Notes under the pieces: model-generated | The model's database searches: none | Told to the model about the DNA's origin: nothing | What the model saw: the letters and a program-made list of their open reading frames with translations, nothing else | Origin: a virus | Strand: one strand, 5' to 3' | Length of the DNA: 22,377 bases | Virus record (IMG/VR): IMGVR_UViG_3300048837_000298 | Coordinates: 1-22,377 of that record | Position numbers and translations under genes: made by a program | In this document: positions 2,316-21,679 of the stretch, piece by piece | Position numbering within the stretch: the first letter of the stretch is position 1 | How the letters are laid out: each line of letters begins with the position of its first letter

Positions 2316-4760
2316 GTGTCCAACCTCTTCCGCAATCCTCAGCCTATCCTCGAATCGGTGCAAGCGCCGCCTGCGTGCGCGTTCCACCTCGCCGAATCCA
2401 CCCTCTCACACGATCAGATCCGCGATGCGCTCAGAGCCGCGCTGTGCGATGGAAAGGGTGACTCGTACTACTGCTGGCCGCGTGAGGTCTTCGACGACTA
2501 TGTGATCTACGAGATCGAAGCACCGACCGGACAGGCGCTCTACCGGCGCGGCTACACCATCGACGGCGACGGCAACGTGACGCTGGGCGATGAGCAGCCG
2601 GTGCGTGTCGAGACCAAGTACGTGCCAGTCACCGAGGCCGTGTCTGACCGCTTGCAGGGCGGCGCGTTGCTCGAATCGCTCGATTCGGACGGCTGGAACT
2701 GGCGCATTCAGGTCATCCAGGCCGGCACATCCATCAACCAGAACGAGTACCCGCTGGCCGTCTTGCACGAGGCGGTCAACGCCTACGCTGGCGTCCCGGC
2801 CTTCTACGGGCGCGGCAAGGATCACAACCCCAACGAGCGTGGCTTCGATAGCGTCGCCGGCTACATCACCAACCCCGCGCCGAACCCTTCCGGTATCGAG
2901 GCGACGCTAGAGATCAACCGCGCCAAGCCGGACGTGCGTGAGGCCGTCAAACACGCATGGGAAGTGACCCAACGGACAGGACGCGCGCCGTTCGGGTTCT
3001 CGCACGTCGTCCCGGCTGGCGGTGCGATCGTCGAGGCGCGCAAGCCACGCGGCTACCGGGTAAAGGCCATCACCCGCGTTGAATCGGTCGATCTGGTCAT
3101 GGCACCGTCGGCCGGTGGCGCGCTCCTCTCCCCCCTTTCGGAATCGCAGGATTCATTCGTTCCTGACCCATTACAGGAGGCAATCGTGAACGTTGCAGAA
3201 CTGCTCGCTCGCTATCGTGCGGGCAACAGGCTCACGCAGGACGAATGGAAGTTCCTGCAAGAGTCACTCCCAGCCGATGAGTTCTCGGCGCTGCTGGCAG
3301 AGGCCGTCCCGACCAAGCAGTCCGAGGCGGCGACTGACGAGATCGCTGAGGCGGTCAAGCAGGGTGCCGAGCAGGGCGTACAGGACGCCATGACCAAGCG
3401 CATCGAAGAGGCCGCTGCCGCTGCCGAGCGCCGGTTCCAACTGGCCGAGTGCAAGGCGACGCTGGCCGAGCTGCTGGCCGAATCGAAGCTGCCGCAGAAG
3501 TTCCAGGACGCGATTCGCGCCGACTTCAGTGGGCGCATCTTCGAGGCGGTGGAACTTGAAACGCGTATCAGCCGCGACAAGGACTTGTTTGCCGAGGCAG
3601 CCGCCGTCAAGCCGCACGGACTGGGCGCGGTCGTCGTGACTGAGGATCAGCGCGAGAAGCATCAGAAGGCGATGGACGGCCTCGTCTGGGGCAAGACCAT
3701 CGACGGGGTGAAGCCGTTCCTGACGCTCAAGGAGGCCTATCAGGCGGTCTCCGGCGACTATCGCGACAGCTACATCGACGGCATTCTGGCGCAGCGGGTG
3801 TTGCAGGAAGCGCGCACCTTTACCGGCGATGACCGGCTGCTGGCCGAGTCCGTGACCACCACGACCTTTGGCGACGTGCTCGGCGACTCGATTCGCCGTC
3901 GCATGTTGCAGGAGTACGCGCGGCCTGACCGGCAGACGTGGCGGCAGATCGTCACGACCACGCCGGTGGTCGACTTCCGCACCGTCGAGCGCACCCGCTG
4001 GGGTGGCTACGACTTCCTGCCGGTCGTCGGGCAGGGCGCGCCCTACCAGCCGCTCGACACGCCTGGTGACGAGAAGGCCACTGACAGCCTCGACAAGCGG
4101 GGCGGTCTGGAGGATCTGACGCTAGAGGCGATCGCCAACGACGACATGGGCCTCGTCCGACGTATCCCGGTCAAGCTGGGCTACGCAGCGGTCGACACGC
4201 TCTACAACGAGGTCTGGAACGTCACGATCAAGGACAACGCGACGGCCTCCTACGACTCGACGACGCTCTACCACAACAACCACGCCAACACCGGCACGAC
4301 CGCCTTCGACAACGCCGGCGCGGGTCTGCTGGCGGTCGAAACGGCCATGCGTGACCAGCTCGACTACGGCAACCAGACCGGCCTGCCGCTCGGTGAGGCC
4401 AACATGCCGCGCATTCTCGCGATTCCGAACGAGTTGCGTGTGGTGGCCTACCAGGCCGTGACCGGCATGACTCCGGGCGGCGCGACCGTTCCGAACATGT
4501 TCCAGGGCCGCTATGAGGTGATCGTCGTCGACTCCTGGACGGATGCGACCGACTGGTACGCCTTCGCTGACCCGTCGCTCAATCCGGTCCTCGAAGTCGG
4601 CTTCTATCAGGGCCGCGAAGAGCCGGAGTTGTTCGTGCAGGACGCGGCCAACGTCGGCAGCATGTTCACCGCCGACAAGGTGACGTGGAAGATCCGGCAC
4701 ATCTGGTACGTGATGATCATTGACCATCGCGGCACCTACCGGATGGTCGTCTCGAACTAA
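2316..4760 (+). CDS. Prohead protease - scaffold - major capsid protein fusion (Mu gpT-like capsid)
   Basis: One 814-aa frame carries three functions. Residues about 110-280 look like a prohead protease of the assemblin-like S78/U9 class: KDHNPNERGFDSVAG gives a candidate catalytic His170, and RVESVDLVMAPSAGG gives Ser257. Residues about 291-440 are Ala/Glu-rich and helical, like an internal scaffold. Residues about 440-814 match the Mu gpT-like major capsid family, ending in PELFVQDAANVGSMF and WKIRHIWYVMIIDHRG. The GTG start is preceded by GGAG with a 7-base gap. A strong internal ribosome binding site at 3175-3188 could start a 524-aa scaffold-capsid product. In Mu the protease, scaffold and capsid are separate genes; protease-capsid fusions are known in some phages. 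Maturation would require self-cleavage between domains. The domain limits are my estimates. Confidence 0.85.
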   Translation: MSNLFRNPQPILESVQAPPACAFHLAESTLSHDQIRDALRAALCDGKGDSYYCWPREVFDDYVIYEIEAPTGQALYRRGYTIDGDGNVTLGDEQPVRVETKYVPVTEAVSDRLQGGALLESLDSDGWNWRIQVIQAGTSINQNEYPLAVLHEAVNAYAGVPAFYGRGKDHNPNERGFDSVAGYITNPAPNPSGIEATLEINRAKPDVREAVKHAWEVTQRTGRAPFGFSHVVPAGGAIVEARKPRGYRVKAITRVESVDLVMAPSAGGALLSPLSESQDSFVPDPLQEAIVNVAELLARYRAGNRLTQDEWKFLQESLPADEFSALLAEAVPTKQSEAATDEIAEAVKQGAEQGVQDAMTKRIEEAAAAAERRFQLAECKATLAELLAESKLPQKFQDAIRADFSGRIFEAVELETRISRDKDLFAEAAAVKPHGLGAVVVTEDQREKHQKAMDGLVWGKTIDGVKPFLTLKEAYQAVSGDYRDSYIDGILAQRVLQEARTFTGDDRLLAESVTTTTFGDVLGDSIRRRMLQEYARPDRQTWRQIVTTTPVVDFRTVERTRWGGYDFLPVVGQGAPYQPLDTPGDEKATDSLDKRGGLEDLTLEAIANDDMGLVRRIPVKLGYAAVDTLYNEVWNVTIKDNATASYDSTTLYHNNHANTGTTAFDNAGAGLLAVETAMRDQLDYGNQTGLPLGEANMPRILAIPNELRVVAYQAVTGMTPGGATVPNMFQGRYEVIVVDSWTDATDWYAFADPSLNPVLEVGFYQGREEPELFVQDAANVGSMFTADKVTWKIRHIWYVMIIDHRGTYRMVVSN
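3175..3188 (+). promoter_or_regulatory. Internal ribosome binding site and in-frame GTG start
   Basis: AGGAGG (3175-3180), a 5-base spacer (CAATC) and GTG (3186-3188) form a textbook initiation site inside the fusion gene. The GTG is codon 291 and is in frame. It falls at the domain border, just after a Ser/Pro-rich linker that ends the protease and just before the helical scaffold (VNVAELLARYRAGNRL). It would yield scaffold-capsid without protease, like the nested scaffold starts of lambda Nu3. Alternatively it is a relic of two genes fused by loss of a stop codon. Confidence 0.7.
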
Positions 4761-4773
4761 CCCCTGAGTGAGA

Positions 4774-4796
4774 GGAGGGCGGGATTCCCGCCCTCC
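4774..4796 (+). terminator. Perfect 10-bp hairpin after the capsid gene
   Basis: GGAGGGCGGG (4774-4783) pairs perfectly with CCCGCCCTCC (4787-4796) around the 3-base loop ATT. It begins 14 bases after the capsid stop and ends 26 bases before the next ATG. No U-tract follows, so it is more likely to stabilise the 3' end of capsid mRNA or to cause partial pausing than to be a full intrinsic terminator. Confidence 0.55.
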
Positions 4797-4822
4797 AGCC
4801 TACGAAACAGGAGTAACGAACC

Positions 4823-5233
4823 ATGTCGAACCAACTCCACGACATCCCCGGCAACCACGTTGCCACTGCGCCGATTCGGGCGCACGCAGCGGCGACGGCG
4901 ACGGAACTCGTCGGCATCTTCCGCGCACCGTTCGCCTGCAAGATCATCAGCGTCGAAATCCTGTGGGACGCGGCCATCACGGGCGCGGACACCAACACGA
5001 CCCACGTCAACCTGCACAACCGAGGCACGGCCGGAACCGGCACGACCGAGTTGGGCAACATCGACTATGTGTCGGGTACCGACGCGGCCGCGTTCGTTGC
5101 CGAGGATCTGTACAGCCCGGCCACACCGCTCGAAGTCGCGGAAGGTGTGATTCTCGCCATCCAGCTTGAAAAGGTGGCTTCCGGTCTGGCCCTTCCAAAC
5201 GGGACCGCCATCGTGACCTATCAGGGCAACTAG
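4823..5233 (+). CDS. Putative capsid decoration protein, 136 aa
   Basis: The ATG follows CAGGAGTAACGAACC. The protein is small, Ala/Thr/Gly-rich and beta-type. A segment reading FRAPFACKIISVEILWDAA is followed by NTTHVNLHNRGTAGTG and a C-terminal strand ending in NGTAIVTYQ. This repeating beta pattern, the size, and the position directly after the major capsid gene fit head decoration or stabilisation proteins that sit on the capsid surface. It is flanked on both sides by strong RNA hairpins, as if expressed at a distinct level from its neighbours. I do not see a signature that proves the family; a small head fibre protein is the alternative. Confidence 0.5.
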   Translation: MSNQLHDIPGNHVATAPIRAHAAATATELVGIFRAPFACKIISVEILWDAAITGADTNTTHVNLHNRGTAGTGTTELGNIDYVSGTDAAAFVAEDLYSPATPLEVAEGVILAIQLEKVASGLALPNGTAIVTYQGN

Positions 5234-5241
5234 TCGCGCAC

Positions 5242-5269
5242 CTGCCGTGCTCAATCACGAGCACGGCAG
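5242..5269 (+). terminator. Perfect 11-bp hairpin after the decoration gene
   Basis: CTGCCGTGCTC (5242-5252) pairs perfectly with GAGCACGGCAG (5259-5269) around a 6-base loop. It starts 8 bases after the stop of the decoration gene and ends 24 bases before the next start. No run of T follows. It probably acts as a 3' stabiliser or a weak attenuator between head-shell genes and connector genes. Confidence 0.55.
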
Positions 5270-5293
5270 CACTCAGGAAGGAAGGGGGTACGG

Positions 5294-5995
5294 ATGCCGG
5301 AGACACTTGCCAGCGTGAAGACGAAAGTCGCCAGCGTTATCCAGGACACCCCTGGCTTCCTGAGTGCTGCCGCTGACGGCGAGATCGAGATGGCGATTCG
5401 TGAGGCCATCGAGCGCTACAGCAGCGACGCGCCGCGTGAGGTGATCGAGGATGTGGCCGGCGACGGCACGACCTACGACCTCGCACTGACCGAGTACGTG
5501 GACGGCGCGCGCATCATCACGGTCGAATACCCGGCCGGTGAACGCACCCCGCTCTACCTCGACGGCAACCACTGGACGCTCTACCGGACGGCCGGTGCCA
5601 CCAGCCTCCGGCTGCTCCACGACACGCCGGGAAGCGGCGAGACGGTGCGGGTGCTCTACACCACCCCGCACACGCTGGACGGCCTCGACGGCGCGGACGC
5701 CACCACCATCCCGGCGCGGCATACCTGGGCGTTCGTCAACCTCGTGGCGGCGCACTGCATGTTCCGCTTCGCGTCGCGCTTCCTGCACGAGCAGGAGACG
5801 ACGCTGAACGCCGATAGCGTGGATCGTGGCTCGAAGCCGGACGAGGCGCGCCGGATCGGTGGGGCGCTGCTGAATCGCTACAAGGAGCAGGTCGGCGTCG
5901 CCAGCGGTGAAGCGCCGACGACGATGGTGCTGGATTGGGATCTGCCGCGCTTCGGCGGTATCGGCGCGCTCACGCATCGCGGACGGCACATATGA
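5294..5995 (+). CDS. Head-tail connector (adaptor, gp6/gp15-like)
   Basis: This 233-aa protein follows a purine-rich site (AGGAAGGAAGGGGGTACGG). The N-terminus is helical (TLASVKTKVASVIQDT, then EIEMAIREAIERYSSDAP), as in HK97 gp6/SPP1 gp15-type adaptors. A beta-rich middle (TYDLALTEYVDGARIITVEYP; RLLHDTPGSGETVRVLYTTPH) and a helical segment (AFVNLVAAHCMFRFASRFLH) follow. Such adaptors form the ring that docks under the portal and begins the neck. The slot between the capsid/decoration genes and the gp10-like gene is where this protein is expected. Its stop overlaps the next start as ATGA. The family assignment rests on shape and context. Confidence 0.6.
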   Translation: MPETLASVKTKVASVIQDTPGFLSAAADGEIEMAIREAIERYSSDAPREVIEDVAGDGTTYDLALTEYVDGARIITVEYPAGERTPLYLDGNHWTLYRTAGATSLRLLHDTPGSGETVRVLYTTPHTLDGLDGADATTIPARHTWAFVNLVAAHCMFRFASRFLHEQETTLNADSVDRGSKPDEARRIGGALLNRYKEQVGVASGEAPTTMVLDWDLPRFGGIGALTHRGRHI

Positions 5996-6471
5996 GCGTC
6001 CGTATCAGCGTGACGGATACCGGCGTCAGCGCCGCCATGCAGAACGCTCCCAGGGCCATTGACGGCGCGGCTGAGCAATGGGTAGCCGGTGTGACGATCG
6101 ACGCTGAGGGCGGTGTCATCGCCGCGACGCCGGTCGGCGCAACCAGCCATCTGCGCCAGTCGATCACGCATCAGATCAGCGGCTCAGGCATCGCCATCGA
6201 GGGGCGTGTCTTCTCGACGGATCTGCCGATCAAGGTTGTATCCGTCGAAGGCGGTCGCAAGCCCGGCAAGATGCCGCCGCGTGGGCCGATTGAGTTGTGG
6301 GTCGCGCGCAAGCTTGGCGGTGACGCGCGGGTGGCCTTCCTCGTGGCGCGTGCCATCGGCCGGCGCGGGACGAAGGGCCAGTTCATGTTCCGCAAGGGCG
6401 CAGAGGTCGCACGGGCCAGTGCCGCCAAGCGACTCCCGGCGTTGCGTGCCGCGATTGCGCGGGTCATATGA
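5992..6471 (+). CDS. HK97 gp10-like neck / tail-completion protein
   Basis: The start is the ATG at 5992 in the ATGA overlap with the connector gene. The frame is open further upstream (to 5935), but that extension lies inside the connector gene and lacks a ribosome site. The 159-aa product has the family pattern: a short N-terminal strand, a helix, then TPVGATSHLRQSI, which corresponds to the common TPvdTGrLr motif of HK97 gp10-type proteins. A basic C-terminus follows with repeated Arg/Lys-Ala helices. These proteins act at the head-tail junction. The downstream neighbour, the probable tail terminator, overlaps by ATGA. Confidence 0.7.
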   Translation: MSVRISVTDTGVSAAMQNAPRAIDGAAEQWVAGVTIDAEGGVIAATPVGATSHLRQSITHQISGSGIAIEGRVFSTDLPIKVVSVEGGRKPGKMPPRGPIELWVARKLGGDARVAFLVARAIGRRGTKGQFMFRKGAEVARASAAKRLPALRAAIARVI

Positions 6472-6953
6472 GCTACGCAGCCATCCGTGACGCCATCGAG
6501 GCGCGGCTGCTGACCGTGACCGACATCGGCCGGGTCAATGACTACCGGCGCGGCATTACGACCCGTGAAGCCTTCGACGCGGCCTTCGTGACGACGATCG
6601 GCGGCGTGCGACAGGTGCGTGGCTGGGACATCGCGCTCGAATCGGGCGGCTACAGCCCGGACGGCTGGCAGGCGGACGGCACGATGCGGATGAGCGGCCT
6701 GCACACCTACGTCGTGCGCGGCTACCTGTCGCAGAACGACGCGGACGGCAGCGACAAGATCATGACGGCGCTGGTCATCAACGTCATGAAGGCACTGGCG
6801 ACCTGCAAGGCCGCGATTGAGCCGCGTGAGTCGCACGTCCCGGTCCTGCTCCGCACCAACGGGTTCGTCACCTTCGATGCGCCAGGCTTCGGCGGGTTGC
6901 TCTGCAACTACGCGGAGATTGCCATAACGGTGCTAGATCACGAGGTCGTCTAG
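6468..6953 (+). CDS. Probable tail terminator / tail completion protein, 161 aa
   Basis: Starts in an ATGA overlap with the gp10-like gene. The first helix (YAAIRDAIEARLLTVTDIGRV) and the mixed alpha/beta body with WDIALESGGY and HTYVVRGYLSQND resemble the gpU/gp11-type tail terminator fold, which caps the tail tube and joins it to the neck. The position after the gp10-like gene and before the tail tube gene is the expected one. No diagnostic motif is visible, so the call is contextual. Its TAG stop abuts the ATG of the methyltransferase gene with no gap, so the accessory genes were added without breaking the coupled operon. Confidence 0.5.
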   Translation: MSYAAIRDAIEARLLTVTDIGRVNDYRRGITTREAFDAAFVTTIGGVRQVRGWDIALESGGYSPDGWQADGTMRMSGLHTYVVRGYLSQNDADGSDKIMTALVINVMKALATCKAAIEPRESHVPVLLRTNGFVTFDAPGFGGLLCNYAEIAITVLDHEVV

Positions 6954-7484
6954 ATGCACGACGCTGCACGCGCCGCCGTCATCCGCGCCATCGACGCGCT
7001 CAATCTCGACCCGACCGACAAGCGGGTCTGTGAAGTGGGCAGCTACAACGTCAACGGCACGATCCGCGACCTGTTCGACGGCTGCAAGGACTACACCGGC
7101 GTGGATGTCCGCAAGGGTAGCGGCGTTGACGAGGTGGCCGATGGTGCCACATTTGGACGCGCCAACACCTACGACATCGTAGTCTCGACCGAGACGCTGG
7201 AACACGCGCCGGAGCCGCAGAAGATCGTCGCCAACGCCTTCCGCATCCTGAAGCCAGGCGGCGCGGTCATTCTCACGGCGGCTGGTCCCGAGCGGCCCGA
7301 GCACGGCTCGGACGGCGGGGCGCGTGGTGAGCGCGAGCACTACGCGAACATCGCCGAATCCGACCTGCGCCGCTGGCTACGCGATGCTGGATTCAGCCGC
7401 GTCCATGTCGAGCGCAACAATCGGCCCTATCACGACGACGTATATAGCTGGGCCGTCAAGCCAGAACCGGACGGTGACGCATGA
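6954..7484 (+). CDS. SAM-dependent methyltransferase (class I, Methyltransf_11-like)
   Basis: This 176-aa protein shows the Rossmann-type methyltransferase signature. Motif I is VCEVGSYNVNG (residues 25-35, a slightly degenerate E-x-G-x-G loop). An acidic strand end (YTGVDV, 48-52) binds the ribose. STETLEHAPEP (79-88) and the ILKPGGAVILT strand (98-108) follow. The substrate cannot be read from the sequence; such enzymes methylate small molecules, sugars or proteins. The gene begins immediately after the previous stop and ends in an ATGA overlap with a glycosyltransferase, so the two are co-translated and probably act on the same product. It is not a structural tail gene and is an insertion into the tail operon. 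Confidence 0.8.
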   Translation: MHDAARAAVIRAIDALNLDPTDKRVCEVGSYNVNGTIRDLFDGCKDYTGVDVRKGSGVDEVADGATFGRANTYDIVVSTETLEHAPEPQKIVANAFRILKPGGAVILTAAGPERPEHGSDGGARGEREHYANIAESDLRRWLRDAGFSRVHVERNNRPYHDDVYSWAVKPEPDGDA

Positions 7485-8608
7485 CCGGCATGACGCTCCC
7501 CATGCTGATCGACCATCGCGCCGAGCCGGTCCCGGTGACGGATACGCCGCGCATTCAAGTCGTGGCACCTGGCCCCCACTACTCGACGAAGGACGTGTAC
7601 GACGGCGCGATCGCTGGTCTGCGTGCGCTCGGGACGGTCGATGTGCTGGGCCTCGACTACCACTTCGACCTGATGGTGGCAGGCCGGATCGAGGGCGAAC
7701 TGGAGGGCGACGAGGCGGCACGCTTCGGCAACCTGACCAGCTACGCCTCGCACCGGGCGGTCGCGATGGCGATGGCGTTCCGGCCCGATCTGATCCTGTT
7801 CATCAGCGGCACGATCTTCCCGCCTGCCGTCGCCGCCATGCTCGGACAGTACACGCAGACGGCGGTCTGGTTGACGGAATCGCCCTACCAGGACGAGGGC
7901 GAGTACGCCGTCCAGTCGTTCTACAAGTACGCCTTCACCAACGAGCGGCTGATGGTTGACCGGATCGTCGCCAAGCGCATCGAGGACGGCCACCCGTATC
8001 CGGGCGCGGTCCACTACCTGCCGCACGGCTTCGACCCGCTGCGCCACTACCCGAGAACCGATGTGCCGGACGAGTACCGCAGCGATGTCTGCTTCATCGG
8101 TTCACCGTTCCCGGAGCGACAGGCGTTGCTCTCGGGCGTGGACTGGACCGGCATCGACTTCGTGTCGCGGGGTGTCTGGTCGACACGCAGCCTTGAGGAC
8201 ACGCTGCATACGCTGCCGGACAACGTGCCGAACGAGGAGGCGCAGCTCTACTACGCAGGTGCGAAGATCAACCTCAACCACCACCGGCTGGTCAAGTGGT
8301 ACGGCTTCGACGCCGAGATCGCGCCGGACGAGGCGGACAGCCTCAACCCGCGTGTCTACGAACTGGCAGCCGGCAAGTGTTTCCAGATTTGCGATGACTC
8401 GCGCGACGAGTTGCGCGACATCTTCGGGAACTCGATTCCCACCTATTCCCACCGTGACCCCGCCGACCTGGAGCGGGTCATCCGATACTACCTGGCCCAC
8501 CCGGAGGAACGGGAGCGGTGTGCTCAGGAGGCGTACGAGCGCGTCCAGTCGCACACCGTCGCGGCACGTATGCGCGTTGTGCTGGACACCTGTCTAGCCG
8601 ATATGTAG
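7481..8608 (+). CDS. Glycosyltransferase, CgeB/GT-B type
   Basis: This 375-aa protein has two Rossmann-like halves. The N-terminal domain starts with RIQVVAPGPHYSTKDVYDG (24-42) and includes LILFISGTIFPPAVAAM (104-120) and VWLTESPYQDEGEYAV (129-144). The C-terminal domain starts SDVCFIGSPFPERQALL (201-217), contains AKINLNHHR (261-269), and carries the donor-binding region NPRVYELAAGKCFQICDD (289-306), with the conserved RVYE/aAGg pattern of CgeB-like family 1 transferases. The last part is a helical tail (LERVIRYYLAHPEERERCAQEA). It overlaps the methyltransferase by ATGA. The likely role is sugar transfer to a phage structural protein or host surface. DNA glycosylation is possible but less likely, as no modified-base pathway is visible. 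Confidence 0.8.
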   Translation: MTGMTLPMLIDHRAEPVPVTDTPRIQVVAPGPHYSTKDVYDGAIAGLRALGTVDVLGLDYHFDLMVAGRIEGELEGDEAARFGNLTSYASHRAVAMAMAFRPDLILFISGTIFPPAVAAMLGQYTQTAVWLTESPYQDEGEYAVQSFYKYAFTNERLMVDRIVAKRIEDGHPYPGAVHYLPHGFDPLRHYPRTDVPDEYRSDVCFIGSPFPERQALLSGVDWTGIDFVSRGVWSTRSLEDTLHTLPDNVPNEEAQLYYAGAKINLNHHRLVKWYGFDAEIAPDEADSLNPRVYELAAGKCFQICDDSRDELRDIFGNSIPTYSHRDPADLERVIRYYLAHPEERERCAQEAYERVQSHTVAARMRVVLDTCLADM

Positions 8609-10071: not shown

Positions 10072-13000
10072 ATGTCGCAGAATCACAACGTCGAAATCAG
10101 GATCACCGCCCAGAACCTCTCGACTCCTGAGTTCCAGAAGGTCGTGCAGGAACTGCGTGGACTGGGCACGGCTGCTGACGTTGCCGCCGAGGATGTGCAG
10201 AAGGTTGGTCGTGCCGCCAAGCAGACTGGAGCTGATCTTGGCAATGCTGCTGCTGCCTATCGAGGGATTGCCAGCGATCTGCAAGAGGCAGCGAACAAAG
10301 CCGACGCTGCCAAGCGTGCATTCAATGAGGCCAGCCGGTCGATCGGTGGCGATCAGTCGCTGGCGCGTTCGATCTTTCCTGATCTGGCGGCGAATGCCGA
10401 TGCTGCCGAAGCCGAACTGCGGCAACTGCAAGCCGCCGCGCGTGACGCGACCGGCGACTTCGACTCGATGGGCAAGAGCGCACTATCGCTGAATCTCAAT
10501 CTCAAGAACATCGTCGAGACGGCAGCGGGTGTGGCGCTCGGTGACCTGATTGCCGACGCGCCGCGCCAGTTGATTGCGTTCGGCAAGGCCAGCATCGACG
10601 CGGCCAGCGACTTTCAGGAGTCGATGAACAAGGTCGAGGTCGTCTTCGGTGACGCCTCCGATTCGATGATGGACTGGTCCGAGAATGCCGCTGAGGCGTT
10701 CGGGTTGAGCCAGTCGGCAGCACTCGACGCGGCTGGCACGTTCGGCAACCTGTTCACCAGCATGGGCATTGCGCAGGGCGCGGCGGCGGAGATGTCGCAG
10801 GGCATCGTCCAACTGGCGGCTGATCTCGGATCGTTCAACAACATCGGGACCGATGTTGCGCTGGAGAAACTCCGCGCCGGTCTGGTTGGCGAGATTGAGC
10901 CGCTGCGCTCGCTCGGCGTCAACATCAACGCCGTTATGGTGCAGCAGAAGGCGATGGACATGGGGCTGGCGGAAAACGTCAAGTCCCTGACGGCGGCTGA
11001 TAAGGCGCAGGCGTCCTACGCGCTGATCCTCGAACAGACGACGAACGCACAGGGTGACTTCGTGCGGACGGCTGACGGCCTCGCCAACAGCACGAAGACG
11101 CTGCAAGCCAACTTCCAAGACCTGCAAGTCCAGGTCGGTCAGGTTGTGGTGCCGATCGCGACCGATTTCGTGGGTGCGCTGAATGACGCGGCCGAAGGCG
11201 CGATGTTCCTGACCGGGATGCTGGGTGAACTCTCGACGGCCCTGACCGGCAACGCCGATGCCTTCGACATCGCCAAGCAGAAGGCGCGCGAGTGGAGCGA
11301 CGAGGTTCGCGACGCCGGATATGCGGCGGCTGAGTTCGGCGTCGGCATCGCGACCGGCGTTGTCGATTGGCTCTGGGGATTCGGTGATGCGGCGGATGAC
11401 GCGTCCGAATCTGGCAGTGAACTTGCGTCGATGTTCGGCGAAGAGCTGATTGTCCAGATTCGGGAAGCCGCGCAGGCGTCCGCTGAATTCAACCCGCTGT
11501 TCAATGAGACGATTGCGCTGTTGTCGCGCGTGTCGAACGACGCCGAGGCCGGCGGCGCATCGCTCGACAAGTTCGGCGGCGCGTTCGGCCGGCAAGCCGA
11601 GATGGCCGGGCTTGCCAACGAGCGCAACACCGAGTTCTTCCACACCCTCGAACTCGGCAGCGGGAAAGCCGCCGAGATGGCGTTCCACGTCGCGAAGGTG
11701 GCCGAAGCGCAGCAGTTGCTGGCCGATGCCTACCAGGACGGCTTGCGTGGGATGGAGCTGTTCAACCAGCAGTCATCCGAGTACGCCGGTATCCAAAGCA
11801 CGCTCGAAAAGGGCTATGAGATCGTCCTCAAGAAGCAGGAAGAGGGCGTCAAGCTTACCGACGAAGAGCAGCAGCTGCTTGACCGCTACCCGGAACTCTA
11901 CGGGCGGCTGGAGGGTGCGCAGGAAGACGCCACGACGCAGGCGGCGCTGTTCGCCGGGGCCAACGCCGAGGTGATGATCGCGCAGGACGAACTCAACGCG
12001 GCCATCGCCCGTGGTGAGGGCAACCTCGACCCGTATATCCAGCGATTGAACGACGCGAAGGCGCTGGTGGGCGATCAGGCGTATGCCGACCCGATGATCG
12101 GCAGCATCAACACGCTGACCGATACCGTCACGACCAAACTGGTTCCGGCCATCGAGGACATGACCCGCAAGATCGAGTACATCTCGAAGCCGTGGTTGAT
12201 CGAGATCGACGCGGCCACCGAAGCGGCCGAGGCCGAACTGCTGCGCATCCTCGATCTCATCAACCGGATCAATAGCAGCAGTGCCGCGCCGTACATGCCG
12301 GGTATGGGCGATCCGGGCGGTGGGCAACGCTTTGCCGAGGGCGGTCTGGTTAGTGAGCCGACGCTTGCGATGATCGGTGAGGCGGGGCCGGAACTGGTGC
12401 TGCCCCTGACGCGGCCCGACCGGATGCGTGAACTGCTGGCGCTGGCCGGCTTCCCGATGATGGCCGATGGCGGCGGGGCCGGGTTCCGCAACACGGGCGG
12501 TGCGGGTGGGATGGGCAGCCGTCCGATTCTGGACATCGCCGTCTCGTTTGAACCGATCGAATGGGACTTCCTGTTTGAGGGGTTGGATAAGGCCGCCGAG
12601 GATTGGGGCGCGCAGGCCGGGCAGAAGTTCATCGGCTTCTTCCGAGGCAACATCGAGGATCTGGCATCCGGCGAGATGCTGGCCGACGCACGCGCCGAAC
12701 TGGAAGACCTGTTCACGATTCGCGGCATCGCTGTCGAGTCGGGGGCCGGTGCCGAGATCATCGCGGAAATCGACGCGGCGATTCGGGCGCAGTCGGATGA
12801 GGTCAACGCCATCGGCGCGTCGATGGGAACCAGCATCGTCGAAGGGATCGCGGCATCGCTGGCAAGCGGTGAAGCCGCCGCGCTGCTGGCCGAGTTCCGA
12901 CAGAACGTGTTCGACGCGCTCGATCTTGGCGACATCGCTGACGAGCAGGTTGACCTCCAGTCGGCCATCGACGAACTGACGGCCCTGCGGGATGCCGCTG

Positions 13001-14268
13001 CCGAACTTGGCGATACGGCTACCGCCGATGTCCTGACGGCGCAACTGTCCGAACTTGAGGCCGAACTGGCGCTCGTGGCGCAGATCGCCGGAACCGATGC
13101 GGTGGCCGCATGGCAGGCCAATCAGGAGGCGATGGAGGCCGCTGCCGAGGTTGCCGAACGGATGGCCGAGAAGCAGGCCATGCTGCATGAGTCGATGCTG
13201 ACGGCCATTGAAGGGATCGCGGCCGGTGGTGACGCGACCGGATCGTTCTTCGAGCGGCTGCTGGAGCAGTACGAGGAAGCGAAGGAGGCCTTCGATCTCG
13301 GGCTGCTGCTGGGTGTCCCACCTGAAGTGCTGGAGCAACTCGGCAACGATCTCACTGAGGTCGAATCCACACTGTTGCAAACCACCAACGGGCTGAAGCA
13401 GGCGCTGGCGGCCGGTCTGATCGACGAGGAGACGCTGCAGGCGCTGGCCGAATCGGGCGGTGAGGCCTTCGAGCAACTGTACGATTCGATATTTGGCCCC
13501 GGTGCGCTCGATGCCATTGCAGCGGGCTGGAACGACATCAGCGATGCCTCGCTGGCGCAGTTGCAGGAACTGATGAGCCAGATGGAGGACGGCGGGGCCA
13601 GCCTGGTCGATACGCTGGTGGGCCAGATCGCGGCTGGGGCCATCTCCTACGAAGAGGCGCTGGCGCTCTACGGCGACGCGACCGGCGAAGAGGTCAACGC
13701 GATCCTCGAAGAGCTCGAACGGATGCAGACGGCGCTGCTGGTCGATCTGGCCGAGGCGCTGGCAACCGGGTCCGATCCGACCGCCATCGAAGAGAACCTG
13801 GCCGTCATCGAGATGCTGATGGACTCGCTTGCCGACAAGGCCGTCGAGACCGCTGAAACGGTCGTCAAGGCCGGGAAGTCGATGGGCGTCTACGGCGACG
13901 ACCTCAAGGGTGCGCTGGAAGACATCAGCGAGACGACCAATCCGGGCGGCACCGGCACGGGTAGCGGCACGCGACGGTCGGGCGGCTTCCTCGACGGCAT
14001 GAACAATCCCGGCTTTGACAGCCTCGACCGCAACGGCGACGGGATTATCAGCCAGCGCGAGTTGGATCTGGCCGGCGTACCGTCCGGATTCCGCTGGGGG
14101 CTGCCGGATGTGCCGACGCCGGTTGTGACGACGGAGGCACCGGCACCGCTGCCACGCAGCGCAGACCGGAGTCGTGAAACGAGCGAGATGCGCGACGCCA
14201 TCCGGCAGGGCGCGCGTGAGGGTATCGCGTCCGGCATGACCGGCTTTCAGATTCCACCGGGGAGGTAG
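10072..14268 (+). CDS. Tape measure protein, 1398 aa
   Basis: The longest gene in the window, just after the chaperone pair. The N-terminus is a long Ala/Gln-rich helical region (VQELRGLGTAADVAAEDVQK), with the family's DFQESMNKVEVVFGDAS segment near residue 180. Residues 754-779 carry FAEGGLVSEPTLAMIGEAGPELVLPL, the GE-x-GPElvlPl motif of tape measure proteins. Unusually, about 620 more residues follow, mostly charged helices, ending with a Gly/Ser linker and an EF-hand loop, DRNGDGIISQRE (1319-1330; Asp1319, Asn1321, Asp1323, Glu1330). The protein sets tail length; by the usual 0.15 nm per residue rule the whole protein would correspond to a tail near 200 nm. The ribosome site before the ATG is weak (GGAACGATTGC). 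Confidence 0.9.
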   Translation: MSQNHNVEIRITAQNLSTPEFQKVVQELRGLGTAADVAAEDVQKVGRAAKQTGADLGNAAAAYRGIASDLQEAANKADAAKRAFNEASRSIGGDQSLARSIFPDLAANADAAEAELRQLQAAARDATGDFDSMGKSALSLNLNLKNIVETAAGVALGDLIADAPRQLIAFGKASIDAASDFQESMNKVEVVFGDASDSMMDWSENAAEAFGLSQSAALDAAGTFGNLFTSMGIAQGAAAEMSQGIVQLAADLGSFNNIGTDVALEKLRAGLVGEIEPLRSLGVNINAVMVQQKAMDMGLAENVKSLTAADKAQASYALILEQTTNAQGDFVRTADGLANSTKTLQANFQDLQVQVGQVVVPIATDFVGALNDAAEGAMFLTGMLGELSTALTGNADAFDIAKQKAREWSDEVRDAGYAAAEFGVGIATGVVDWLWGFGDAADDASESGSELASMFGEELIVQIREAAQASAEFNPLFNETIALLSRVSNDAEAGGASLDKFGGAFGRQAEMAGLANERNTEFFHTLELGSGKAAEMAFHVAKVAEAQQLLADAYQDGLRGMELFNQQSSEYAGIQSTLEKGYEIVLKKQEEGVKLTDEEQQLLDRYPELYGRLEGAQEDATTQAALFAGANAEVMIAQDELNAAIARGEGNLDPYIQRLNDAKALVGDQAYADPMIGSINTLTDTVTTKLVPAIEDMTRKIEYISKPWLIEIDAATEAAEAELLRILDLINRINSSSAAPYMPGMGDPGGGQRFAEGGLVSEPTLAMIGEAGPELVLPLTRPDRMRELLALAGFPMMADGGGAGFRNTGGAGGMGSRPILDIAVSFEPIEWDFLFEGLDKAAEDWGAQAGQKFIGFFRGNIEDLASGEMLADARAELEDLFTIRGIAVESGAGAEIIAEIDAAIRAQSDEVNAIGASMGTSIVEGIAASLASGEAAALLAEFRQNVFDALDLGDIADEQVDLQSAIDELTALRDAAAELGDTATADVLTAQLSELEAELALVAQIAGTDAVAAWQANQEAMEAAAEVAERMAEKQAMLHESMLTAIEGIAAGGDATGSFFERLLEQYEEAKEAFDLGLLLGVPPEVLEQLGNDLTEVESTLLQTTNGLKQALAAGLIDEETLQALAESGGEAFEQLYDSIFGPGALDAIAAGWNDISDASLAQLQELMSQMEDGGASLVDTLVGQIAAGAISYEEALALYGDATGEEVNAILEELERMQTALLVDLAEALATGSDPTAIEENLAVIEMLMDSLADKAVETAETVVKAGKSMGVYGDDLKGALEDISETTNPGGTGTGSGTRRSGGFLDGMNNPGFDSLDRNGDGIISQRELDLAGVPSGFRWGLPDVPTPVVTTEAPAPLPRSADRSRETSEMRDAIRQGAREGIASGMTGFQIPPGR

Positions 14269-19089: not shown

Positions 19090-19238
19090 ACGGATCGGCC
19101 ATCAACCTGTTGCTGCTCTTCATCATCGCAGCCGCGATCCTGAGCCTTGCCGGTGTCGGGCGCGACATGCGCGTGTACAGCGTCGTCGTGCTGGTGGCCG
19201 CGCTACTGATCGTCGCCATTCGAGCGGGGGCGATATGA
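19086..19238 (+). CDS. Small two-TM protein, 50 aa (holin/antiholin candidate)
   Basis: Both ends are ATGA overlaps: the start at 19086 with the previous stop and the stop at 19236-19238 with the endolysin ATG at 19235. The two hydrophobic segments are residues 5-22 (AINLLLLFIIAAAILSLA) and 31-46 (YSVVVLVAALLIVAI), joined by a short turn containing GRDMR. This is the arrangement of a small class II-type holin directly coupled to the endolysin. The tight double overlap is strong support that the gene is real. Confidence 0.65.
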   Translation: MNGSAINLLLLFIIAAAILSLAGVGRDMRVYSVVVLVAALLIVAIRAGAI

Positions 19239-20608
19239 GCTACAGCGGCGCATCGCTCATTCTCGGACACGGCACGGTATCGGCCGAGGCGGTGAACGCC
19301 TGGTATGCGGCGCGCGGACCCAAAGCCGCGGAATCGTATGCACCTGACCGGACGTACAAGCCTGCACCCGCGGACCTCGGGCAACTCATCATTGAGGAGT
19401 CCCGCCGCTGGCCGTCGCACGTCGTCAACCATGACCTGATCGCCGCAGACATCGCGCACGAGAGCGCCTTCTGGCAGTCAGCCATCGTCCGTGACAAGCA
19501 CAACCCGTCAGGACTCGGCGCGGTCAATGACAACGCCTACAAGGGCGCTGTGACGTTCCTGAGTCCGCGTGAGGGCATCCGCGCCACCGTCGCGCACATG
19601 CTGTCCTACGCGGTCGGTGATGGCCCGTGGGCCACCACTGATCCGCGGTTCGCTGCGGTGAAGGCGAAGGGCTGGCTCGGCACCGCGCCGCGGCTGATGG
19701 ATCTCAATGGCAAGTGGGCCTATCCCGGCACGACCTACGGACAACAGGTCGCAGCCGCGGCCAACGCGCTGATCGACTTCGCGAATAACGGATCATGGGA
19801 GCCGCCGATGACAGCACAGATACCTGGATTCGCGTGGCTGCCTGCTGACAGCCGACATCACACGAAGGGCCGCACGAAGCGCATCAGCGGGTTCGCGGTT
19901 CACTACACGGCCGGAACCGACTCGCGTGGCTGGCTGACGACCAATCCCAACAGCGACGTCTCCGCGACGTTCCTGATTCGCCATAACCCGACGCTCGATG
20001 ATCGCGGCTGGCAACTGGTCAGGATTGAGGACACGCCGCACACGACCGGCGGCATCGTCAATCCGTTCACTGTCTCATTCGAGTACGAGCACACCGGCAA
20101 CGGGACGATTCCTGACGTCGCCTATGACGTGATGGCGCAGACGATCATCGACACGGCTGCCTACGTCAAGGCGAAGGGTCTGGGCGAGATCCCGCTGACC
20201 CGTGACGCGATCAAAGGCCACAAGGAGTGGGTCGGAGATAACCGCGTCTGCCCTGACGGCATCGACGTTGACCGCATCGTGCGCCGGATTCAGGAGTTGA
20301 CCAAACCTGACCCGCAGCCACCGTCCGATGACTGGCCGAAGGTGCCGCCCGCCGTCCCTGACCCGCACCGCGCCACGAACCCATACGGCAATACGTTCTG
20401 GGTGCCGAAGCAGTTCGCCGTTCCGATGGCCTCTGAATCGTTCCTGACGCACGGCTACGTCTGCTCGGAGGCGTTCGCGTGGACAAACCCTGACGGGGAA
20501 GTGCTGGTCGTGCAGGCAACCGAGCGGACGCGCTGGGAGCTGCACCGCGACGGGTCGGTCACACGCGGTCTGGTTGGACTGGAATGGCTCAGGACGGTCA
20601 AGCGATGA
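19235..20608 (+). CDS. Two-domain endolysin: glycosidase plus amidase, 457 aa
   Basis: Residues about 50-185 form a glucosaminidase-like glycosidase: IAADIAHESAFWQSAI gives a catalytic candidate Glu76, and NPSGLGA and a GIRATVAHMLSYAVGDGPW segment follow. This resembles the N-terminal domains of actinophage LysA proteins. Residues 216-355 are an N-acetylmuramoyl-L-alanine amidase (Amidase_2) with Zn ligands His223 (AVHYTAG), His329 (IKGHKEW) and Cys339 (VCPDG). A Pro-rich linker (358-380) leads to an unrecognised C-terminal ~75-aa module (FWVPKQFAVPM through TRWELHRDG) that may bind the cell wall. It would cut peptidoglycan at both sugar and peptide links. No signal peptide is visible, so export depends on a holin. 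It is coupled at both ends by ATGA. Confidence 0.9.
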   Translation: MSYSGASLILGHGTVSAEAVNAWYAARGPKAAESYAPDRTYKPAPADLGQLIIEESRRWPSHVVNHDLIAADIAHESAFWQSAIVRDKHNPSGLGAVNDNAYKGAVTFLSPREGIRATVAHMLSYAVGDGPWATTDPRFAAVKAKGWLGTAPRLMDLNGKWAYPGTTYGQQVAAAANALIDFANNGSWEPPMTAQIPGFAWLPADSRHHTKGRTKRISGFAVHYTAGTDSRGWLTTNPNSDVSATFLIRHNPTLDDRGWQLVRIEDTPHTTGGIVNPFTVSFEYEHTGNGTIPDVAYDVMAQTIIDTAAYVKAKGLGEIPLTRDAIKGHKEWVGDNRVCPDGIDVDRIVRRIQELTKPDPQPPSDDWPKVPPAVPDPHRATNPYGNTFWVPKQFAVPMASESFLTHGYVCSEAFAWTNPDGEVLVVQATERTRWELHRDGSVTRGLVGLEWLRTVKR

Positions 20609-20916: not shown

Positions 20917-21603
20917 TTAGATGTGTTTCCATCGTCGCCGGTTGGCGATGCCATAGATGGACGACGGCGACACACCGTACTGCATCGCGACGGCGCGATA
21001 ACTCTCGCCGGAATCGACCATGTAGCGGATCGCTCTTACGTCATCAGCGGTCAACTTCGCATGGCCGTTCCGTTCGCCAGTGCAACCACGGCCCTTGTTC
21101 ATCATGTCGGCAACATTGTCAGCGTCAGTGCCAAGAAAGAGATGACTCGGGTTGACGCAAGATGGTGTGTCACACCGATGCAGGACATTCATGTCTTCGG
21201 GGATCGTGCCATAATGCAACTCCCACGAGACACGATGCGCCAATCTCATCCCATCGCCGCGACTGCCGATGTTGACTTGCCCGTACCCTCCCGGATTGCG
21301 GTATCCGTTCCACAGCCAGCACGATGCAGTCTTTTCAACCTTCTCCCAAAATCGCTCAGCAAGCGGCTTCTGCCGGTGCGCTGTATGGCAAGAAGGCGAA
21401 CAGTACTTGCCGCCGCCGCGACGCACTGCGCCCGGATGTACGCTGAATACCTCGCTGCACTGCAAGCAGACACGAGATTCCGACTTCCTGCGAGATGCAC
21501 CCGAACACTGCGGGGAGCAGTACTTCCCCCTGCCTTTTTCGATCTGGCATGGATGTGTCGTAAATGGCTTGCCACATTGGAGGCAGGTACACTGAAGGGG
21601 CAT
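20917..21603 (-). CDS. HNH homing-type endonuclease, antisense to the operon, 228 aa
   Basis: On the minus strand the ATG (21601-21603) follows AAGGAG with a 6-base spacer; an upstream ATG at 21669 has no such site. Two treble-clef zinc units come first: CTCLQCGKPF with KYCSPQC (5-33) and CLQCSEVF with KYCSPSC (46-72). Then comes an HNH_3-like nuclease domain: CWLWNG (95-100), a conserved LAHRVSWELHYG (His123) and VLHRCDTPSCVNPSHLFLGT (His142, Cys144, Cys149, Asn151, His154). The C-terminus is a helix-turn-helix (KLTADDVRAIRYM... AMQYGVSPSSIYGIANRR). Such free-standing nucleases spread by cutting uninterrupted sites in related phages. GC is visibly lower here than in neighbours. Confidence 0.85.
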   Translation of the reverse strand: MPLQCTCLQCGKPFTTHPCQIEKGRGKYCSPQCSGASRRKSESRVCLQCSEVFSVHPGAVRRGGGKYCSPSCHTAHRQKPLAERFWEKVEKTASCWLWNGYRNPGGYGQVNIGSRGDGMRLAHRVSWELHYGTIPEDMNVLHRCDTPSCVNPSHLFLGTDADNVADMMNKGRGCTGERNGHAKLTADDVRAIRYMVDSGESYRAVAMQYGVSPSSIYGIANRRRWKHI

Positions 21604-21646
21604 TCTGGACTCCTTCCGCGAGTCTGGGGTGTCGTGCCGGTGGCTG

Positions 21647-21679
21647 TTGACGCAGCGCACCGGCTTCATCGTGCGTCAA
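21647..21679. repeat. 8-bp perfect inverted repeat between the HNH gene and the next gene
   Basis: TTGACGCA (21647-21654) and TGCGTCAA (21672-21679) are separated by 17 bases; TTTTA follows on the plus strand. It lies upstream of the HNH start (minus strand) and upstream of the AGGAGG site of the 108-aa gene (plus strand). It could be an operator, a bidirectional weak terminator, or the scar of the HNH insertion. Confidence 0.45.

Follow-up and report, generated by a model that had tools for sequence, protein, structure and literature searches.

A conserved, probable nested start at the protease/scaffold border of three-part phage capsid genes

Introduction

When the maturation protease, the scaffold and the major capsid protein of a phage are encoded in one open frame, a problem of dosage arises, because a shell is built from hundreds of capsid subunits but presumably requires few proteases. 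A gene of this kind lies at 2316-4760 of the window, by which we mean the whole analyzed stretch of 22,377 bases from a virus record. The original prediction for this gene was that it is translated from two starts, its own and a nested in-frame GTG, so that few protease copies and many scaffold-capsid copies are made. Does the gene carry such a second start, and is the start conserved in related fused genes? Fusions have been published for Gifsy-2 (according to the title of Effantin et al. 2010, as cited in PMC3121763), for the Pseudomonas phages F10/MD8 (PMC8508860) and also for Paracoccus phages.

Results

Gene order and domain architecture

The genes of the window are ordered from head to tail. 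A portal gene (1-658) and a Mu F-like head morphogenesis gene (658-1482) precede the capsid gene, which lies on the + strand, starts with GTG and encodes 814 aa. Head-completion genes and then tail genes follow on its 3′ side; the tape measure protein is encoded at 10072-14268 and an amidase-type endolysin at 19235-20608. A SAM methyltransferase and a glycosyltransferase-like gene (6954-8608) are situated between the head-completion and the tail genes, and a frame on the - strand (20917-21669) resembles a zinc-finger/HNH homing endonuclease, as judged by sequence alone. No match to an Rfam family was found anywhere in the window.

The frame of the capsid gene is open over all 814 codons, as had been predicted, and the structure of its product was modelled with a mean pLDDT of 81. 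The N-terminal alpha/beta domain (residues 32-96, 2409-2603) was predicted with a pLDDT of about 90. It has only a weak match, to phrog_760 (residues 26-105, 3e-4), and is unaligned in the relatives L003 and L012, the match to L012 starting at residue 94. It is followed by a predicted capsid maturation protease domain (residues 128-273, 2697-3134) and by a low-confidence linker (residues 276-290), in which the border between protease and scaffold falls. Helices were predicted at residues 286-301, 308-317, 320-329, 355-389, 394-404 and 411-430, and this helical region (286-430; the domain is placed at 3186-3605) would represent the scaffold. The C-terminal domain (residues 513-814, 3852-4757) is a major capsid protein with an HK97 fold: Pfam family PF25209 (Phage_capsid_4) matched residues 512-809 with 4.8e-38, and the predicted model matched HK97-fold capsids and encapsulins with a best Z score of 15.3. 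The label "Mu gpT-like" for the capsid end holds for the fold, as Foldseek matched the Mu capsid among others; it does not hold for the Pfam family.

The architecture of the gene is an N-terminal maturation protease and a C-terminal HK97-fold capsid protein with no stop codon between them. The protein has a full-length profile match to PHROG 29592, which has no named function (5.8e-129 across residues 34-814), and its C-terminal part matches PHROGs 4523 and 133 ("major head and protease protein", "head maturation protease"). The NCBIfam models for fused genes aligned only from residue 319 or 352 on and stayed far below their curated cut-offs: NF045541 reached 154 bits from residue 319 on (cut-off 525 bits) and NF045540 125 bits (cut-off 475). 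A sequence search of the PDB found nothing.

The protease domain

The protease domain of the window was not recognised by Pfam, and neither NCBIfam nor Pfam gave a match to a ClpP-like protease domain in the protein. When the domain was modelled alone (pLDDT 87), its best structural match was T4 gp21 (5jbl; Z 9.8, rmsd 3.5, 132 aligned residues), followed by herpesvirus assemblins with Z scores of 8.0 and below. The Foldseek E-values for this fold are weak (0.01), and therefore, the assignment rests on the structural alignment together with the conserved residues. On these grounds, we place its predicted fold with those of T4 gp21 and herpesvirus assemblin. Of the two motif residues named in the original prediction, His170 proved to be invariant (47/47 protease domains), and Ser257 is present in 36 of the 47. 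A role of Ser257 as nucleophile is thus unsupported; the invariant serine is Ser229, which occurs in all 47 protease domains and in 61/61 sequences of the full alignment. Asp259 is found in 44/47 protease domains.

Several relatives, among them L053, L069 and L048, have open frames of 1,056-1,222 aa, and ChaB, DUF6582 and helix-turn-helix domains were found among the members of the protease alignment. Together, this indicates that extra domains seem to have been inserted ahead of the protease.

The fusion in relatives

Relatives were collected by a scan of IMG/VR, which yielded 486, with 80 loci being kept, and GTDB genomes added 18. The marker residues of both protease and capsid are present in one frame in 91 of 93 distinct proteins of relatives; of the two that deviate, one comes from a truncated contig. 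This shows that the fusion is ordinary for the family, and it rules out that the fused frame results from a stop codon lost by sequencing error. The three-part fusion is not new, but widespread and of an already named kind (NCBIfam, PHROGs), and the view that this phage is unusual in combining the parts has to be given up. A Rhodocyclaceae genome contig (L101) contains a fused protease-capsid gene for 671 aa (3971-5986 of that contig) and, 3′ of it, a second, stand-alone capsid gene for 361 aa (6205-7290) that lacks protease and scaffold.

The predicted internal start in the window

The Shine-Dalgarno (SD) motif AGGAGG is located at 3175-3180 on the + strand, and a gap of 5 nt (3181-3185) separates it from an in-frame GTG at 3186-3188, codon 291 of the capsid gene; the positions are exactly those predicted. 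The product from this start would consist of scaffold and major capsid protein (3186-4760) and have 524 aa, in agreement with the predicted length. The SD duplex at 3186 has an energy of -10.3 kcal/mol, versus -5.6 at the gene's own GTG at 2316. Among the 838 start-like codons on the window's + strand, only 8 have an SD motif of at least this strength, and four of the other seven open ORFs of at least 100 aa (5294, 8618, 14272 and 21714). No SD-start of the window is stronger than the one at 1483 (-12.0), directly 3′ of the Mu F-like gene; its frame would be small (<80 aa). Over the family, the median SD energy is -8.4 at the internal start versus -4.8 at the earliest possible start, which is not necessarily the one in use.

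Conservation of the internal start in the family

Start-like codons with an upstream SD motif were scored in every gene, and family counts were based on 79 clusters at 70% identity. A strong SD motif with an in-frame ATG or GTG at a place equivalent to residues 285-295 of the window was found in 73 of the 79 clusters, which, belonging to one family, share ancestry. Other bins of equal width contained a mean of 1.7 and a maximum of 12 clusters. With bins of 66 residues, 74/93 genes had an SD-start at the border, compared to at most 15/93 elsewhere in the frame, and in frame +1 at the border only 11 of the 93 genes had one. When codons were shuffled synonymously, with the protein sequence and codon usage of each gene left unchanged, 37.0 ± 3.7 of 79 clusters had such a site, and the highest count among 200 shuffles was 49. 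Thus, roughly half of the signal is attributable to the choice of amino acids and the remainder to the choice of codons. The three controls (frame, position and synonymous shuffles) rule out a chance SD motif in a GC-rich frame.

The start codon itself varies between close relatives while the SD motif is kept: it is GTG in the window and L002 and ATG in L003, L015 and L089. The spacing between SD motif and start codon at the border is mostly 5-11 nt, and the start lies 12-35 residues (median 19) beyond the conserved GG that ends the protease. Codon conservation at the border, analyzed with six close relatives, was only mildly raised and not extreme. The start and its optimisation at the synonymous level are kept in relatives down to about 30% protein identity.

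The local mRNA structure pointed in the same direction. In the family of the window, the predicted folding energy of 40 nt at the start was -5.67 kcal/mol for the native genes, -8.08 for the synonymous shuffles and -10.31 elsewhere in the gene. Exactly at the internal start, the predicted mRNA structure is at its weakest, weaker than in the synonymous shuffles, whereas control in-frame ATGs equal their shuffles. The stronger SD motif and the unstructured mRNA at the internal start agree with the production of few protease copies and many scaffold-capsid copies. In summary, a conserved in-frame SD motif and start codon mark the protease/scaffold border, and the proposal of an internal start that makes a separate scaffold-capsid product, in the style of lambda C/Nu3 and Mu I/Z, receives strong support from this sequence comparison.

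Other fusion families and unfused genes

Two further families of fused capsid genes were analyzed in the same way. In fusions with an HK97-type protease, a border SD-start is present in 32/46 clusters, compared to 18.2 ± 2.4 (maximum 24) after shuffling. In fusions with a ClpP-type protease, which include Gifsy-2, it is present in all 20 clusters (formed at 90% identity), compared to 8.9 ± 2.0 (maximum 14). The shuffle means of the three families (37/79, 18/46 and 9/20) show that the Glu/Gly-rich amino acids of the linker partly favour an SD motif. In the ClpP-type genes, the border Met is residue 244 of the extended frame (221 as annotated), and the typical sequence reads GAGGA(A/G), then TTY, two more codons and the ATG. 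The first Glu is encoded by GAG in 18/20, even though Glu is more often encoded by GAA in these genes. The 40-nt mRNA energies (native/shuffled/rest of gene) were -4.25/-5.13/-10.11 in the HK97-type and -3.51/-4.87/-7.58 in the ClpP-type family; the effect versus shuffles was modest for the HK97-type (p = 0.011).

Profile comparisons revealed that the proteases of the window type and the HK97-type align, and that the similarity between the ClpP-type and the window type is confined to the capsid part. The NCBIfam models of the two named fusion classes cross-match from about the border on. Fusions of the NF045541 class (e.g., Bordetella phage PBb002 and Stenotrophomonas phage S1) have the same domain order and border start as the window and are homologous to its family from protease to capsid, again by profile comparison. 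The Gifsy-2/F10/MD8 class (NF045540) likewise contains protease, scaffold-like middle part and HK97-fold capsid in one frame, and our scan detected an SD motif and ATG at the border inside the Gifsy-2-type genes; in contrast to the window, the protease of this class is ClpP-type.

Unfused genes were also included. In the archaeal Methanoculleus virus (L4768), protease and scaffold are encoded by gp12 and the capsid by a separate gene, gp14; gp12 contains AGGAG..ATG at Met198. An internal start has also been proposed in the unfused protease-scaffold gene of the Mu-like phage PaMx73. In phage Mu, scaffold Z is annotated in frame inside protease gene I, with the signature seen in the window (an SD energy of -7.4 and open mRNA), and the control scan recovered this start; unlike in the window, the capsid protein T has its own gene. 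Lambda C/Nu3 is likewise an in-frame scaffold nested within a protease gene, but the capsid gene E is separate and the annotated nu3 start has no clear SD motif. The control scan missed nu3 as annotated, so that not every nested scaffold carries the signature. The window differs from the Mu and lambda arrangements in having no separate downstream capsid gene, as the capsid protein is encoded in the same frame.

Discussion

From the architecture and the conservation of the start at the nucleotide level, we infer that the capsid gene contains a nested in-frame scaffold-capsid gene and is used from two starts, and we assign a probability of roughly 80% to this interpretation as a whole. Ribosomes starting at GTG 2316, with its weak SD motif, would produce the full 814-aa protein, and ribosomes starting at GTG 3186, with its strong AGGAGG motif and weakly structured mRNA, the 524-aa scaffold-capsid protein, which would be in excess. 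Both products would co-assemble by their shared scaffold and shell part, so that the prohead would hold a minority of protease-bearing subunits. The protease would then remove the protease and scaffold parts, leaving a shell protein of about 300-370 aa, whose N-terminus would fall at about residues 430-515.

Could it instead be that only the full-length protein is made, with one protease per shell subunit, and that the SD-like sequence arises incidentally from a Glu/Gly-rich linker and a Met? The description of MD8 (PMC8508860) gives three domains in one gene, with no internal start mentioned in its passages on the phage, Gifsy-2 is likewise presented without one, as far as title and citation go, and the choice of amino acids alone yields about half of the observed sites. 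We nevertheless regard a pure polyprotein as unlikely, since the choice of synonymous codons adds strongly to the SD motif in three families and lowers the mRNA structure at the start, and since all three share its in-frame position at this border. The location at a domain border, shortly after the GG that ends the protease, would also suit an SD motif that pauses translation for folding of the protease before the scaffold is synthesized, with no initiation taking place. A pause, however, needs neither an ATG or GTG at SD spacing nor open mRNA, and both are conserved, which makes this explanation very improbable. Least probable of all is that the start is an unused remnant from a time when the scaffold-capsid gene stood alone, before its fusion to a protease gene. 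In favour of such an origin, unfused relatives such as the Methanoculleus virus exist, and related capsid parts are found behind proteases of three families; yet a relic would decay, and this start has been kept and optimised across highly diverged relatives. Moreover, the break in the unfused relative lies between scaffold and capsid and not between protease and scaffold.

A nested scaffold is also known from herpesviruses, in which UL26 encodes an assemblin-type protease fused to the scaffold and UL26.5 a nested scaffold-only product. The predicted protease fold of the window matches the UL26-type assemblin. The UL26.5-type product has its own transcript, and the capsid protein is separate.

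The fusion and the nested scaffold are each known; for their combination, a conserved nested scaffold-capsid gene, we found no description in the searchable literature. The same literature, which leaves most subscription journals outside, yielded no description of an internal start in fused capsid genes. We consider it fairly probable, with less confidence than for the gene of the window, that nested scaffold-capsid initiation is a general rule, as yet undescribed, for tripartite capsid genes, which holds in three families with two unrelated kinds of protease and sets the dose of protease in the prohead.

Taken together, a conserved second start would solve the dosage problem of fused capsid genes without an extra gene, and it would join the nested scaffolds of the lambda and Mu type to the scaffold-capsid fusions of the HK97 type in one frame. 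If this is true, the reading of Gifsy-2-like capsids as polyproteins would need revision, and hundreds of annotated phage genes may each conceal a second protein-coding start.
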